DNA from: a virus
Direction: 5' to 3' (one strand)
IMG/VR virus record: IMGVR_UViG_3300020396_000365
Coordinates: 1 to 36,519 of that record
Length of the DNA: 36,519 nucleotides
In this document: positions 1 to 32,342 of the stretch, piece by piece
Layout of the letters: every line of letters begins with the position of its first letter
Numbering within the stretch: the stretch's first letter is position 1
The notes under the pieces: generated by a model
Told to the model about the DNA's origin: nothing
The model's database searches: none
The model's input: the letters and a program-made list of their open reading frames with translations, nothing else
Position numbers and translations under genes: made by a program

Positions 1-1914
1 AAACCAGGTGGACTTGCAACAGCGTCGTACGAAACGCCTAAAGTTGGAGCAGATCAAGTTAATATTTTTCCACCATCACCTGCACTTATAGAAGCTATAA
101 AACCAGGAAATCCACTAAATGCTAATCTAGCTACTAATCCTACACAGTTTACTAATATTGGAAATACTAATCCATTAAGCGGTAGATTTGATTTTGGTAA
201 AGCCATTGCTCAAGACTATTTAGATGCAGTTAAAGGTGCGGCTATGACACCAGTTGCAGCAACACATACAAATAACGGTGCAGCTGAACAATTATTATTA
301 AATGGATATGGTTTAGTATTTGAAAGACTACTAAAAGAAGGTGACATACCGTTAATGGATCAAAAAGACGAAGACGGAAATGTAATTGAGGCTGGTAAAG
401 AGTCACACCCTGATTATGCTGATCTTTGTCCTGAACCTATAGAAATTCCAGATCCAATAGAAGAAGAAAAGAAAATTCAGAAAAAATTTAATAAGTTTAT
501 TGAGGAATCTAAAGAAGATCCATTTTATGACCTACACAAATTTAAGTTTTTTGAGTTCCATTGTTTAGACGGTAAAGAATCTGCAAGTGATATTATTGTT
601 TTATTTACCAATAGGCTTTTACAAAAATTTGATTCTCTTAATACTACAGGTAGCTGGAGTAGTACTGTAAACAGAAGATTTAACTATATTAGATGGGCTA
701 CTAGTTTAGGTAAAGATCTTTATGAAGATTTTAACGCTAACGACTATTATTATGCTGACTTTCAATGGAAACAAAGATTCCCTTATGTCAATGTTACTAA
801 CGAAACTCGTACAGGAATTAAAAATGCAGGTTACGATAATTGGGAAGGAATAGTAGATGGAGTTTCTAGAGCATTTAAAGAAGCAATGGATGTTGTATTT
901 CCAGTATATGAAGTTTCAGTTGCAGCAACTGGTAATAGAGAGTCATACACATATGATGAAAATGACTTAAAGAAAAGAGTGTCTAATGGTAGAATGGCTC
1001 CAACGCCGATGCCTCAACCTGGTACGTTCGCTAAAACAGGTGAAGTACTTTGCCCACTAGTGCAATATAAATGTCAAACTTCTTTTGATAGAGAAAGAGA
1101 TTTACCGCAATACGAAAGTAAAAGACCCAGAATATTGACAGATCATGTTGTTGCTTTCTTCTCGTATGACAATGACGCAATTAGTGCTATTCAAAAATTT
1201 ACAGGTATAGGTAGTGTTCCATCTTCTGCTTTAGATGAAGGTGAAGCTGAGCAAATTATTTTAGACAATATTGCTGGAATATTATGGTATGATAAAACTT
1301 CTCAGTATGTTGAAAACAAATATGTCAACTTAGAATACAAAAGACGTTGGACTAAAATACCACCTGGAATTACAAGTATTACTCCAAGTATTAGTAGTGC
1401 AGAAGCTGCTTTAACTAAATTTTTATCATTAGATCCTAAAGACGGCGGAACTGTTTTTAAATTTCAATACAATCAAGCTGCTAAAGCAAAAGAGGCTGCA
1501 GAAGAATGTGATGGATTAGAAGATGGCGCTGAAATTGCATTTACTTGGCCAGGTGGAGATCCATATGAAGAAATGGCGGCAATAACTATTAATTATTGGT
1601 ATGCATGTATTGTGAAACCCTTTGCGCCAACGACATCTATGCCTCCTGCATTAATAGCCCCACCGCTTACTGGTATTTATGTACCTATTTATTATGGTGG
1701 TAAAACTAGATTAGCTAATAATTTAAGAAGAGCTTGGAATTCAGGAAAATCATTTACGATACCACCAACAAAACCACCAGCAACTGTTGTTGCGACAGCA
1801 TTAGCTGCCACGTATGCTATGCATTTACTAGAATTCAAATTACTTTATTTAGGTGGAATTCCGACACCTGCTGGACCTGTCCCTATGGTGGGTTTTGTGC
1901 CTGTCGTGTTCTAA
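1..1914 (+). CDS. Large virion-type protein, 5'-truncated, function unknown
   Basis: The reading frame is open from the first base of the window, so the gene starts upstream; 637 residues are visible. The first in-frame ATG, at 244, is unlikely to be the true start because the preceding 81 codons are open and read as ordinary protein with Pro/Asn-rich stretches such as NPLNANLATNPTQF. The middle is charged and rich in aromatics (DPFYDLHKFKFFEF; YYYADFQWKQRF). The last 100 residues are rich in Pro, Ala and Thr and rather hydrophobic (IPPTKPPATVVATALAATYA, then GIPTPAGPVPMVGFVPVVF). I recognise no domain. Its position ahead of the virion cluster, and its size, suggest a structural or virion-associated protein, but that rests on context only. 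It is followed by a 45-base gap holding a promoter-like motif. Confidence 0.75.
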   Translation, partial: KPGGLATASYETPKVGADQVNIFPPSPALIEAIKPGNPLNANLATNPTQFTNIGNTNPLSGRFDFGKAIAQDYLDAVKGAAMTPVAATHTNNGAAEQLLLNGYGLVFERLLKEGDIPLMDQKDEDGNVIEAGKESHPDYADLCPEPIEIPDPIEEEKKIQKKFNKFIEESKEDPFYDLHKFKFFEFHCLDGKESASDIIVLFTNRLLQKFDSLNTTGSWSSTVNRRFNYIRWATSLGKDLYEDFNANDYYYADFQWKQRFPYVNVTNETRTGIKNAGYDNWEGIVDGVSRAFKEAMDVVFPVYEVSVAATGNRESYTYDENDLKKRVSNGRMAPTPMPQPGTFAKTGEVLCPLVQYKCQTSFDRERDLPQYESKRPRILTDHVVAFFSYDNDAISAIQKFTGIGSVPSSALDEGEAEQIILDNIAGILWYDKTSQYVENKYVNLEYKRRWTKIPPGITSITPSISSAEAALTKFLSLDPKDGGTVFKFQYNQAAKAKEAAEECDGLEDGAEIAFTWPGGDPYEEMAAITINYWYACIVKPFAPTTSMPPALIAPPLTGIYVPIYYGGKTRLANNLRRAWNSGKSFTIPPTKPPATVVATALAATYAMHLLEFKLLYLGGIPTPAGPVPMVGFVPVVF

Positions 1915-1924
1915 AAAATAGAAG

Positions 1925-1934
1925 GATATATAAT
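1925..1934 (+). promoter_or_regulatory. Candidate phage promoter motif GATATATAAT
   Basis: An exact copy of a 10-mer that also occurs at 3275, 17096, 25233 and 33470. It lies in the short gap before the S1-domain gene, with 25 bases between its end and the ATG at 1960. If it acts like a -10 or T4-late-type element, transcription would begin near 1940 and give a leader of about 20 A/T-rich bases. Promoter activity is inferred from recurrence and position. Confidence 0.45.
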
Positions 1935-1959
1935 ATGTTACACTCTTAATATAAAAAAA

Positions 1960-3258
1960 ATGACAAACAAATCAAAAAGAGCTAGAATCGGCGAAACTAC
2001 GGTCACTTTAGCAGAAAACACAGTACAATCGAATACTGAAATAGTAGTAGAATCAACAACTAAGAAGGAAGAATTAGAAGATACCAAAGATCCATGGTAT
2101 AATGCAGATGGAGAGTTCATGTGGGAAGAATATGAAGCTACTTGTGTAACCAGACTTAGAAAACCAAATCCACATATTAAAACACGAAACGGAGATAAAG
2201 TATTCTCCAGAGAATTGTACGCTCAAGAGTTGTACGATAAGATGGAAGAGTATGAGTCTAATGTCAATATGTTGCCTGAATTAACAGAAGGTGCAATATA
2301 TGATGGTACTGTATTTGCGGTGACCTCAGACTTTATCACTGTCGACATCGGTTACAGAGAATCAGTTTATATTAAGTTTGAAAAAGAAACTGAGGCAGTT
2401 CAAGCCCTTAGACCAGGTGAAGCTACCTCGGTGTTAATTACAACATATCAACCAGGATCACATGTTATTGGAAGCATCAGCGGTGGTGTTAAACAAAAAA
2501 CATTTATGGATCTTAGAGATGGTGTTGAAAAAGGTGACACTGCTTGGGTCGGTACAGTAGTAAATATGATTGAAAATGGAGGTTACATAGTAAGTGTTCA
2601 AGGAATTGATTGCTTTATGCCTGGATCATTAGCGGGTATTAATAAACTTCATGATTTTAGTTCTATCATAAATACTGAAATGTATGTTGTTCCTGTTAGT
2701 TTCTCACCAGATAGAGGTACTTTAGTAGTATCACATAGAAAATATCTACAAGCATTGATTCCTACTCAAATAGAAGAATTAAAACAAACTATTGATAACG
2801 AACAAACAGGACATGTTACTGGAACCGCTAAATATGGTGTATTTGTTGAGTTTAATAAGTGTTTAACTGGAATGATTCACAATAATGATTTAGACGAAGA
2901 AACATTAGTTAAGTTTAAAGCTAGAGAAATTAAGCCAGGAGACGCCATTGCGTTTAAAGTTAAAGATATAGTAAGTGAGAAGAAAATAACACTGACTCAG
3001 AAAGCAAACGTAGAAACAAATCCATGGGTAGATATTCAGTCTAGATACCAAATTCCTTCAAATGTAACTGCTAAAGTTAAAACTAAAAAGGACTATGGTT
3101 TATTTATTACAATAGAAGATGGTGTAACAGGATTGTTACATATAAGCGAAATAGGAGAAGATACAATGTCAGTATTTAAACCAGGAGATGAGATCACTGT
3201 ACAAATTACAAGGATCGATGTCGACTCAATGAAAGTATTTCTTAAACTACCACAATAA
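1960..3258 (+). CDS. S1-domain RNA-binding protein (ribosomal protein S1-like)
   Basis: A 432-residue protein with an acidic, probably disordered N-terminus (about 1-105) followed by four S1-type OB folds at roughly 108-175, 191-262, 284-348 and 366-432. Repeats 3 and 4 are the clearest: GHVTGTAKYGVFVEF followed by GMIHNNDL and KPGDAIAFKVKDI, and AKVKTKKDYGLFITI followed by GLLHISEI and KPGDEITVQITRID. These are the usual S1 strand and loop signatures. Bacterial S1 has six such repeats and delivers mRNA to the 30S subunit. A four-repeat version could bind phage mRNA and favour its translation on host ribosomes, which fits the near absence of Shine-Dalgarno sequences here, but that role is inference. 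The ATG at 1960 follows an A-rich leader with no ribosome-binding purine run. Other possibilities are an RNA-degradation modulator or a virion-packaged RNA-binding protein. Confidence 0.88.
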   Translation: MTNKSKRARIGETTVTLAENTVQSNTEIVVESTTKKEELEDTKDPWYNADGEFMWEEYEATCVTRLRKPNPHIKTRNGDKVFSRELYAQELYDKMEEYESNVNMLPELTEGAIYDGTVFAVTSDFITVDIGYRESVYIKFEKETEAVQALRPGEATSVLITTYQPGSHVIGSISGGVKQKTFMDLRDGVEKGDTAWVGTVVNMIENGGYIVSVQGIDCFMPGSLAGINKLHDFSSIINTEMYVVPVSFSPDRGTLVVSHRKYLQALIPTQIEELKQTIDNEQTGHVTGTAKYGVFVEFNKCLTGMIHNNDLDEETLVKFKAREIKPGDAIAFKVKDIVSEKKITLTQKANVETNPWVDIQSRYQIPSNVTAKVKTKKDYGLFITIEDGVTGLLHISEIGEDTMSVFKPGDEITVQITRIDVDSMKVFLKLPQ

Positions 3259-3268
3259 GTTTAAACGG

Positions 3269-3304
3269 GAGTGTGATATATAATCAAACGGTAATATCAT
3301 ACTC
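3269..3304 (+). promoter_or_regulatory. Inverted repeat over start region, containing promoter motif
   Basis: GAGTGTGATAT (3269-3279) can pair with ATATCATACTC (3294-3304) to give 11 pairs, one of them G-U, around a 14-base loop. The 3' arm ends three bases before the ATG at 3308. The motif GATATATAAT (3275-3284) begins in the 5' arm and runs into the loop. In RNA read through from the S1 gene the hairpin would abut the start codon. RNA initiated from the internal motif, near 3290, would lack the 5' arm. There is no T-run after it, so it does not look like an ordinary intrinsic terminator. Confidence 0.55.
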
Positions 3305-3307
3305 TAG

Positions 3308-4618
3308 ATGCAAAAACTTAATATAAAATCTACAAAAGAACAGATCCTGAACTCCGCGCAAATAGGCGTGGAGTTTGAGTTCTATTCTAACATGGGGCTT
3401 GAAGATACACAAAAGTCTCTTTCTGATCTATTGAATAGAAAAATTCAACTGGAAGAAAAGGCCCATTCAGATTTCGTACCTGATGACAAAGTCTTTAAAA
3501 TGGAACCTGACATGTCAGGTGGTAAGGGACTTATAGAGCTTGTTACTGGTCCAATTCCTTACAGAAACGCCAGAATAATTATTATTAAAATGTTAGATTG
3601 GATTGACAAAAACGGTTATACTACTGATCGTGCAAGTATTCACTTGAATATGTCCTTTCAAAAAGATTATTTAGAAGATCCATTAATGGTTTCTAAAATG
3701 AATATACTTAAATTTATTTTAGAGTTTGACGAGCAGCAGATTTATAATTTCTTCCCAGAAAGAGAAGGCTCAACATATGCTAAAAGTATAAAATGGGTTA
3801 TGCCATCAAGAGAAGCATATTACTTCGATGAAGATCATATTTCACCGCTTAATTTTAAATATGCAGATTCCAAATATTACGGGATTAATTTCTCTAAGGC
3901 TGAAAAGAACTATCTAGAATTTAGATATATTGGAGGTGTAGATTATCAAAAGAGTAAAGAACAAATTTTGTACTTATGTGAAAGGTTTATTATGCAAATG
4001 TGGAAATCATGCAATGACACTAGATTTACACTACAAAATAGAATAGAACTTAAAAAAATTCTTAATAAGAACAAACCTTTTATAGAATCACTAAAAGATC
4101 ATACTAAATTAAACAAATATTTCCCTAATATTCACGTATTAGTTGATTTACAAGATAATGATCAAGTTGTTAAAGTTCAGTGGCCTAGAATAAAAGATAG
4201 AGTAATTGATTTAATATCAAATGGTACTATGGAAAGAGGAATTATTAATTATGATTCTGATTATGGTACACTTCAAATAAAGGACGGAGTTTTCCCGGCA
4301 GTATTCATTTTAGATGGATATGAATTTATAGATTGCGACATTAGAGGTAATGTAGAAAACTCTGCAATGTATAATTGCAACATAGAAGGATCTATGATTA
4401 AAAGGTGCAACGTTTATAGTAGTACAGAAATAAAAGATAGTAAAATAGAATCATGTTATGTTCATGGTAGCGCTACAGCTACTAATTGTTTTATATTTGG
4501 ACGCGATGGTGTATTTAAAGGTAGAACAATTGGTGGTATATACAGAGAAGGCTTCTTGGGAAAAGATGCCAGAATAGGAGATACTACTGAAGTTGTAGTT
4601 AGTAAAAAAATAAATTAA
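3308..4618 (+). CDS. Amidoligase-like (ATP-dependent carboxylate-amine ligase) enzyme with C-terminal beta-helix
   Basis: A 436-residue protein. The N-terminal part carries the pattern of glutamine-synthetase-fold amidoligases: IGVEFEF at 19-25 (E22, E24 as likely metal ligands), EPDMSGGKGLIELVTGP around 66-81 (D68, E77), SIHLNMSF around H112, and YLEFRYIGG with E204 and R206. Enzymes of this group form amide bonds between a carboxylate and an amine using ATP, for example in peptide tagging or glutamate-cysteine ligation. The substrate here is unknown. From about 315 to 436 the sequence changes to short repeated strands (YEFIDCDIRGNVENSAMYNC, then EGSMIKRCNVYSSTEIKDSK), typical of a left-handed or pentapeptide-like beta-helix. 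The gene sits in a virion cluster behind the hairpin at 3269-3304 and stops three bases before the next gene. Protein or cell-wall modification is possible; I cannot choose between them. Confidence 0.65.
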   Translation: MQKLNIKSTKEQILNSAQIGVEFEFYSNMGLEDTQKSLSDLLNRKIQLEEKAHSDFVPDDKVFKMEPDMSGGKGLIELVTGPIPYRNARIIIIKMLDWIDKNGYTTDRASIHLNMSFQKDYLEDPLMVSKMNILKFILEFDEQQIYNFFPEREGSTYAKSIKWVMPSREAYYFDEDHISPLNFKYADSKYYGINFSKAEKNYLEFRYIGGVDYQKSKEQILYLCERFIMQMWKSCNDTRFTLQNRIELKKILNKNKPFIESLKDHTKLNKYFPNIHVLVDLQDNDQVVKVQWPRIKDRVIDLISNGTMERGIINYDSDYGTLQIKDGVFPAVFILDGYEFIDCDIRGNVENSAMYNCNIEGSMIKRCNVYSSTEIKDSKIESCYVHGSATATNCFIFGRDGVFKGRTIGGIYREGFLGKDARIGDTTEVVVSKKIN

Positions 4619-4621
4619 GAA

Positions 4622-5491
4622 ATGAGTGAAATTAGAAGCGGTGGTTATACCGGAAACGATAAGAATTTAGTAACGCCTAGGGATTTTGGAACTACATGTC
4701 TAAACGATTTCTTAACAGAAATTGCCGAAGAAATTACAGGTGCATGTATGTTGCCTGTAAATCTGCCACAAAAAGAAATTATTAACATAATTAATAGGGC
4801 TAAAAAATGGATGTATAAGAAATATGAAGACTCTGTTAGAGAAAACTATTATCATATTCCCTTTGAGACTTTTAATTCAGATTATTTTATAAACAACAGA
4901 TGCCTTAATTTACCAGCACCAGCACCTTCAGGTACACCTGGAGCAGGTGGAGGTGGAGTATTTTCAGTATATGGTGTATATGATTTAACATCTGGATGGA
5001 ATTCAGTTGGATCTGGAATGGATCTTAGATTCCAACCCGGTGCGGATTTTGCATTAGAAAGAATGTTATTTAGAAATATGTATAATGGATCAGGTCCTGC
5101 TGAAGCTGCAGAAGAATTACAATACTATGTATTAAATGCTTCGTTAGCCGATATGTCTAGACAGATTCTAGAAAATCCTATTTCTTATCAGTACCAAAGA
5201 AATACTGGTGAATTAAAGATTATGGGTGATACACCTAAGGGTGACGTTATATTAGAACTTTATGAGACTATTCCAGACTGTGCCTTATTTGACGATGAGA
5301 TATTCTTTAGATATGTTAGTGCTAAAATAAAACAATCATTAGGTGCTAAATTAGGTATCTTTAAATTTGCATTACCCGGTAATGTTGAATTTGATTATAG
5401 TGCTATTAAAGATATGGGTGATAGTGAATTAGAAGCAATAGAAGAAGAAATCAAAGGAGATGAAGGTGTAGACTTCATGTTCCATAGTTAA
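4622..5491 (+). CDS. Virion structural protein, possible neck or tail-connector component
   Basis: A 289-residue protein. Recognisable features are an early helical segment ending in IINIINRAKKWMYKKYEDSV (about 53-74), a Pro/Gly-rich spacer (APAPSGTPGAGGGGVFSVYG, about 98-118), and an acidic C-terminus (ELEAIEEEIKGDEGVDF). It lies directly upstream of the gp25 and gp6 wedge genes, starts three bases after the amidoligase stop, and has no Shine-Dalgarno sequence. The size is near that of T4 neck proteins gp13 and gp14, but no motif proves this. The spacer suggests two separately folding parts. I regard it as a probable structural gene on context, with identity open. Confidence 0.6.
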   Translation: MSEIRSGGYTGNDKNLVTPRDFGTTCLNDFLTEIAEEITGACMLPVNLPQKEIINIINRAKKWMYKKYEDSVRENYYHIPFETFNSDYFINNRCLNLPAPAPSGTPGAGGGGVFSVYGVYDLTSGWNSVGSGMDLRFQPGADFALERMLFRNMYNGSGPAEAAEELQYYVLNASLADMSRQILENPISYQYQRNTGELKIMGDTPKGDVILELYETIPDCALFDDEIFFRYVSAKIKQSLGAKLGIFKFALPGNVEFDYSAIKDMGDSELEAIEEEIKGDEGVDFMFHS

Positions 5492-32310: not shown

Positions 32311-32325
32311 GCATAACAATTAAAG

Positions 32326-32342
32326 ATATATACAATATGAAA
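32326..32342 (+). repeat. Shared 17-base leader/start sequence, copy 2
   Basis: Identical to 31275-31291 and in the same relation to a start codon. Here it is extended upstream by a G, giving GATATATA, close to the promoter-like 10-mer found elsewhere. Confidence 0.6.

Follow-up and report, generated by a model that had tools for sequence, protein, structure and literature searches.

The leader of an amidoligase-family gene in a virus record of 36,519 bases (the window, meaning the whole stretch of DNA analyzed here) is, as we read its sequence, quite probably a self-cancelling translation mask: RNA reading through from upstream would hide the start of the gene, whereas RNA from the gene's own promoter could not. 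The amidoligase would thus probably be translated only from its own promoter. The features concerned are listed below.

1925 to 1934, plus strand: the same motif as in the amidoligase leader, here in the leader of the S1-domain gene with no masking hairpin, serving as a natural control (sequence; S1 leaders of relatives)
1960 to 3258, plus strand: S1-domain gene, the likely source of read-through (Pfam PF00575)
3269 to 3279, plus strand: 5' arm of the hairpin, GAGTGTGATAT (sequence and RNA fold; pairing kept in relatives)
3275 to 3284, plus strand: probable late promoter box GATATATAAT, overlapping the 5' arm and the loop (leader enrichment; retention in relatives)
3287 to 3291, plus strand: predicted 5' end of the own-promoter RNA, in the loop (T4 late spacing, and the other leader class)
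3294 to 3304, plus strand: 3' arm of the hairpin, ATATCATACTC (sequence and RNA fold; pairing kept in relatives)
3308 to 4618, plus strand: amidoligase-family gene of 436 aa, whose start would be masked (Pfam PF12224, Amidoligase_2)

The match to PF12224 scored 27.7 bits against a cut-off of 22. The T4-type neighbours of this gene in the window include a baseplate wedge family, a head-tail adaptor family and a gp32-like single-strand binding protein. Against solved structures, the C-terminal part of the amidoligase gave three weak sequence matches to designed proteins (E 0.0026 to 0.0095), and this part may form a repeat domain that follows the enzyme.

The first-pass annotation had described an 11-pair inverted repeat with one G-U pair that ends three bases before the amidoligase ATG at 3308, and the hairpin is present in the window exactly so. 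The 49-base gap between the S1 and amidoligase genes contains GAGTGTGATATATAATCAAACGGTAATATCATACTC, and its outer 11 bases on each side are the two stem arms. RNA folding of 3240-3330, the stretch proposed for this purpose, gave a stable structure of -17.8 kcal/mol (z -4.38) that none of 200 shuffles equalled. Counts over the whole window were close to those in shuffled sequence: 11-pair stems with at most one G-U pair and a loop of 3-20 nt occurred three times against a mean of 2.1 in 20 shuffles, and once against 0.7 in 10 shuffles when at least three G-C pairs were demanded. Stems of this kind are therefore about as frequent in the window as expected by chance, so that relatives are needed to judge the hairpin; how rare the stem is within the window says little, and the case rests mainly on comparison. 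The 3269-3304 hairpin was not listed in a repeat search of the window with a 9-base exact seed, no terminator-like site (G+C-rich stem followed by a T run) was found at 3269-3304, and Rfam 15 covariance models gave no matches in 1800-4700 at E up to 1. A terminator-like 12-pair stem was also observed inside the amidoligase gene at 3348-3377; it is strong only in relatives of at least 80% identity (median -20.8) and weaker farther off (-8.6 and -7.6).

The motif in the 5' arm had been called recurring. By count alone this did not hold in the window, where TATATAAT occurred 11 times against 9.2 expected, which is not clearly above chance, and GATATATAAT with at most one mismatch occurred 17 times against 12.5 expected, a count matched by 7 of 100 shuffles. 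By position it did hold, as was seen when, instead of counts in the window, enrichment by position was examined in three large contigs of relatives (G001, G002 and G005). In these, GATATATA was found in the last 50 nt of 25 of 233, 19 of 166 and 20 of 149 leaders, compared with 0.94, 0.58 and 0.68 expected, and it ranked first or second among leader 8-mers in each contig. Furthermore, among the amidoligase leaders of at least 46% identity in the matches listed, 90 of 91 retained GATATATA or GAATATATA, L427 being the sole leader that lacked the motif. A gp55-like late sigma family, phrog_234, gave one match each in 13 of 16 related records (E 4e-13 to 6.5e-9) and none in G017, G019 and W02; the search covered these 16 records, a set outside which the window record lies, and at the loose cut-off of E 1 it also matched 7 of 14 control genomes. 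This family ranked first when two sigma ORFs were analyzed by hmmscan. Weak matches to phrog_12791 were found in 8 of the 16 records (best E 0.001). The leader enrichment together with the phrog_234 matches makes it probable that the motif functions as a T4-type late promoter box. The enriched box is GATATATA(A) and not the T4 late box TATAAATA, which it resembles in place and A/T make-up but not in letters; it would work like a T4 late promoter box without being classed as one.

Shine-Dalgarno 5-mers were rare, occurring in 5 of 233, 3 of 166 and 3 of 149 leaders of the three contigs, and the amidoligase leader of the window lacks such a site. This agrees with the earlier statement that leaders in this phage lack Shine-Dalgarno sequences, and it indicates that translation mostly starts without them.

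Several further observations were made on leaders and loci of the three contigs. GATATATA lay in the last 80 nt of 28, 19 and 22 leaders; in 6, 1 and 4 of these it stood exactly 4 nt before the ATG, and in the others at least 18 nt before. The former constitute a second leader class, with an example in the window at 32325-32339 and loci L316, L319, L323, L325, L334, L335, L337 and L339 in the contigs, whose messages may be leaderless. By eye, 9 of the 11 second-class ORFs start like MKHIKxxExFxNE or MKTFNKYLVEE, resembling the N-terminus of the T4 internal head protein IpIII, which we take to be a capsid-targeting signal in T4. Other leader 8-mers in G001 (L314-L324) fit GTGGTATATTAGTACT, with TATATTAG in 16 of 233 and GTATATTA in 15 of 233 leaders; this set is perhaps another promoter class. 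In the same contig, the amidoligase ORF (L317, from 16733) ends early after 211 codons, and the sigma match (L465) contains two stops; both may be sequencing errors.

The proposed mechanism is as follows. GATATATA would be a T4-late-type promoter box used by the phage's gp55-like sigma. RNA arriving from upstream would hold both arms, and the stem would fold onto the leader beside the AUG, denying the 30S subunit access to a start that lacks a Shine-Dalgarno sequence and would need an open leader. RNA from the gene's own promoter would start in the loop without the 5' arm, leaving the leader open to translation. The start in the loop was placed from the T4 late spacing and from the other leader class, whose ATGs lie 12 bases after the G of the motif.

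We then compared how costly the start region (-18 to +12) is predicted to be to open in read-through RNA and in RNA from the predicted own start. The median cost for amidoligase leaders was 11.8 kcal/mol in read-through RNA versus 2.7 kcal/mol from the own start, and read-through RNA was costlier to open in all 90 motif-bearing listed leaders. For 50 other motif leaders of the three contigs, the corresponding values were 3.5 and 2.3 kcal/mol; comparison of 17 cluster representatives with controls gave p 3e-8. When the assumed start was varied from G+9 to G+16, the result still held in 90 of 90 leaders, with a smallest difference of 3.1. Starting at the motif thus cuts the predicted opening cost by about 9 kcal/mol. 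The difference between read-through and own-start RNA was larger for the amidoligase leader than for any other of the 22, 23 and 20 motif leaders in the three contigs, and by absolute opening cost it ranked 5th of 233, 3rd of 166 and 27th of 149 leaders.

Read-through into the amidoligase gene is expected from the arrangement of the upstream region. No terminator-like site was found on the plus strand in 1800-3347, and a separate GATATATAAT precedes the S1 gene, ending 25 bases ahead of the S1 ATG; messages of S1 should therefore run into the amidoligase gene. Many relatives share a strongly conserved S1 leader (1925-1959 in the window; GATATATAATATGTTACAC.TTTAATATAAA) that is weakly structured, indicating that something other than a hairpin conserves it. 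Because S1 carries the same motif, read-through RNA may itself be late, and the term "late-only" used in the first-pass annotation goes too far; "own-promoter-only" is the safer wording. The T4 e/soc-type switch that it had proposed is otherwise well supported by comparison, through the pairing kept across lineages, the enrichment of the motif in leaders, the gp55-like family and the rarity of Shine-Dalgarno sites.

Relatives were taken as the best 80 matches per scan in three scans, plus a further listing. The first IMG/VR scan yielded at least 23 loci of close kin. Among the matches listed, 50 distinct leaders were obtained from the first set of at least 189 locus rows; all 43 with an amidoligase of at least 61% identity had the element, which was not seen in the 7 whose amidoligase was at most 41% identical. 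In its close-family form, TGATATATA-N(4-24)-ATATCATA, the element occurred once per contig in 10 of 10 large contigs. A wider set of at least 361 locus rows, many sharing contigs, gave 108 distinct leaders, of which 91 had an amidoligase of at least 46% identity and 17 fell below. In the former group, all 90 motif-bearing listed leaders formed at least six pairs between the promoter side and the start side (median 17.5), compared with 20 of 50 control motif leaders (median 3). The probable promoter box lies in or beside the 5' arm of a predicted hairpin at the start region, as in a masked leader of the T4 type. The outermost masking pair reached the start codon or the next codon in 61 of 90 folds; masking would depend on the stem hiding the leader and, in those 61, one of these codons. 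Under a stricter definition of a pair, L414 kept two pairs and the remaining 16 cluster representatives at least seven. Below 46% identity, one of nine motif-bearing leaders paired its motif strongly. Amidoligases of 33-41% identity were found in six phage records of 462-735 kb, and the hairpin was absent from the five that were compared (L025-L029), LR756503 being listed outside the compared set. In three of four L376-related distant leaders (L376, L448 and L449), which have no hairpin, a GGGGC/GCCCC stem with a T-rich tail lies upstream of the promoter; in this one small group, it is possibly a terminator in place of the mask and another way to block read-through.

The comparison also bears on whether the hairpin belongs to the upstream message, as a 3' end stabiliser, a processing site or a terminator of the mRNA of S1 or another gene. 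The hairpin directly follows the S1 stop, and S1 is the upstream gene in all 48 listed leaders of at least 60% identity. However, among the 43 listed leaders at 46-60%, S1 is upstream in 25, another ORF in 17 and none was found in one, and the hairpin stays before the amidoligase where the directly upstream gene differs. At three inspected loci, a same-strand ORF (123, 267 and 76 residues) lies between an S1-like ORF, recognized by eye, and the amidoligase. The hairpin thus follows the amidoligase and not S1, which argues against a role for the 3' end of the S1 message, as do the position of the promoter motif in the 5' arm and the lack of a terminator-like site with a T run at the hairpin. 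We consider such an origin unlikely. A mask kept under different upstream genes would instead separate own-promoter RNA from all upstream RNA, whether early or late.

Distant lineages have arms of other letters that still pair: GCGGTAGATAT with GTGTCTACTGC (L366), AGACTGATATAT with ATATATCGGTCT (L401), TTGGATATA with TATATCCAA (L434) and TCGAATATATA with TATATATTCGA (L432). It would be conceivable for the inverted repeat to act as DNA, that is, as an operator at which a dimeric protein blocks or helps the promoter, since it surrounds the promoter and, in the close family, its inner half-sites TGATAT/ATATCA do not vary. The change of arm letters under kept pairing, the widely varying innermost loop lengths of the 17 representatives and the G-U pairs in the stem would be incompatible with recognition of the sequence by one protein, and we regard this reading as very unlikely. 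Just as improbable is an RNA operator, in which the hairpin would be bound by a protein of the phage, such as the one with the S1 domain, and the amidoligase would be repressed or activated irrespective of the transcription start. A gene with an RNA-binding domain does adjoin, and T4 gp43, which binds an operator hairpin ahead of the start of its gene, offers a parallel; yet both loop and arm letters vary across lineages, the hairpin is kept where another gene is directly upstream, and the constant position of the promoter motif on the 5' side would be left unexplained.

Pairing between the two sides of the leader was then analyzed by a swap test, in which the 5' half of each lineage (14 bases plus the motif) was folded with the 3' halves of other lineages. 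With 17 clusters at 70% identity, native pairs gave -10.35 kcal/mol versus -6.49 kcal/mol for exchanged pairs, and none of 20,000 permutations was as good as native; the same was observed with 33 clusters at 80% identity (0 of 20,000). Clustering at 60% and 55% left four and three clusters and says little (850 and 3,334 of 20,000). In 5 of 17 rows no other 3' half paired as well as the native one, which on average did better than 80% of the exchanged halves. When the motif was left out, 39 of 20,000 permutations were as good. The S1-leader control, comprising 9 clusters after 29 of 115 distinct leaders with no motif at the chosen start were dropped, went in the opposite direction (native -3.46, exchanged -4.26). 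A small native excess was also seen for 56 other motif leaders (-2.17 versus -1.73; p 0.0034 in 10,000 permutations), and the difference for amidoligase leaders was about nine times as large. L427, which lacks the motif, was excluded from the swap and opening tests, so that 90 of 91 leaders were used.

The swap test and the opening costs replaced a shuffle test of single leaders, which saturates because ATATATA pairs easily. In that test, the motif pairing of 0 of 6, 26 of 42, 5 of 7 and 20 of 35 leaders, from near to far, was reached by at most 5 of 100 shuffles, and 0 of 9 leaders passed below 46% identity; the motif site used was too near the ATG in L421 and L432.

Column covariation within the close family was weak. 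Among 11 pairs in 15 sequences, six were invariant and one changed on both sides; stem positions 3, 4 and 5 were unpaired in 4, 6 and 3 of the 15 sequences, and of these only position 3 showed a two-sided change (in three sequences). The 15-row alignment omits L401, L413, L405, L356 and L342, which have another stem register, and L085, which has a bulge, and it adds L081 and L045 to rows from a 19-row alignment. The paired changes looked for in the stem are thin in the close family; among distant lineages, the arm letters differ and the swap test shows the pairing to be kept. Similarly, uncompensated variation of the arms, which the first-pass annotation had named as speaking against its proposal, is partly seen in the close family, at positions 3, 4 and 5, and not across distant lineages.

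Least probable of all is that the stem has no function and arises from AT-rich repeats, a conserved promoter and a conserved leader. In its favour, the window holds about as many such stems as chance would give, ATATATA pairs readily and makes single-leader shuffle tests weak, the unstructured S1 leader is conserved too and the 56 other motif leaders show their small native excess. This reading is opposed by the swap test with its S1 control, by the uniform shift in opening cost and by the better native pairing outside the motif.

A translation mask of this design has precedents. Two reviews describe that longer transcripts of T4 e, soc, 49 and I-TevI fold a hairpin at the start, that late transcripts lack its 5' part, that a 100-fold reduction is cited for e, and that close T4 relatives have similar e leaders with the late promoter in the 5' strand (PMC3014915, PMC2988022). 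The former also states that an operator hairpin lying upstream of the T4 gp43 start is bound by gp43 itself (PMC3014915), and the latter assigns a promoter and a start-masking hairpin to I-TevII, I-TevIII, segB, mobE and seg43(25) (PMC2988022). When the T4 e and I-TevII leaders were taken from the T4 record, the same layout as in the amidoligase leader was found. The T4 leaders of e, soc, 49 and I-TevI thus resemble that of the window in having a start-region hairpin whose 5' part overlaps a late promoter, but they precede other genes and carry the box TATAAATA instead of GATATATA. In T4 e, an arm contains the Shine-Dalgarno sequence, whereas here there is none and the leader and AUG region would be masked instead. 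In T4, the 5' ends and the repression have been mapped, whereas those of the amidoligase leader are predicted. The stem of seg43(25) lies just upstream of the ribosome site, like the window hairpin. Homing endonuclease genes are mobile, whereas the amidoligase gene is a fixed neighbour of structural genes. Overall, the amidoligase leader appears by its anatomy to be a T4 hairpin-masked late leader with different box letters and no Shine-Dalgarno sequence.

Flavobacterium johnsoniae likewise has A-rich leaders without Shine-Dalgarno sequences, and structure in the start region is reported to tune initiation in part (PMC6847099). Structure near the start would matter in both, but that tuning is general and subtle, whereas here one leader is proposed to be masked only in read-through RNA. 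Our guess is that these phages infect Bacteroidota.

We found no report in the open-licence literature of such an arrangement at an amidoligase or in these phages, and no account there of the role of amidoligase in phages. Early expression of T4 lysozyme would be harmful, and a parallel can be drawn: the mask may have been kept through repeated replacement of its arms because the amidoligase harms the cell unless it is made late and from its own promoter, an idea that we put forward tentatively and with some doubt.

In the reviews cited, the logic of e, soc and I-TevI has been described for T4 and T4-related phages, where it masks the Shine-Dalgarno sequence or the AUG. Here, the same anatomy was found at another gene, in phages that are far from T4 and have few Shine-Dalgarno starts. 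These results suggest that embedding the promoter in a hairpin is a portable device by which a gene can ignore transcription coming from upstream, and that it matters when, or from which RNA, the amidoligase is expressed.
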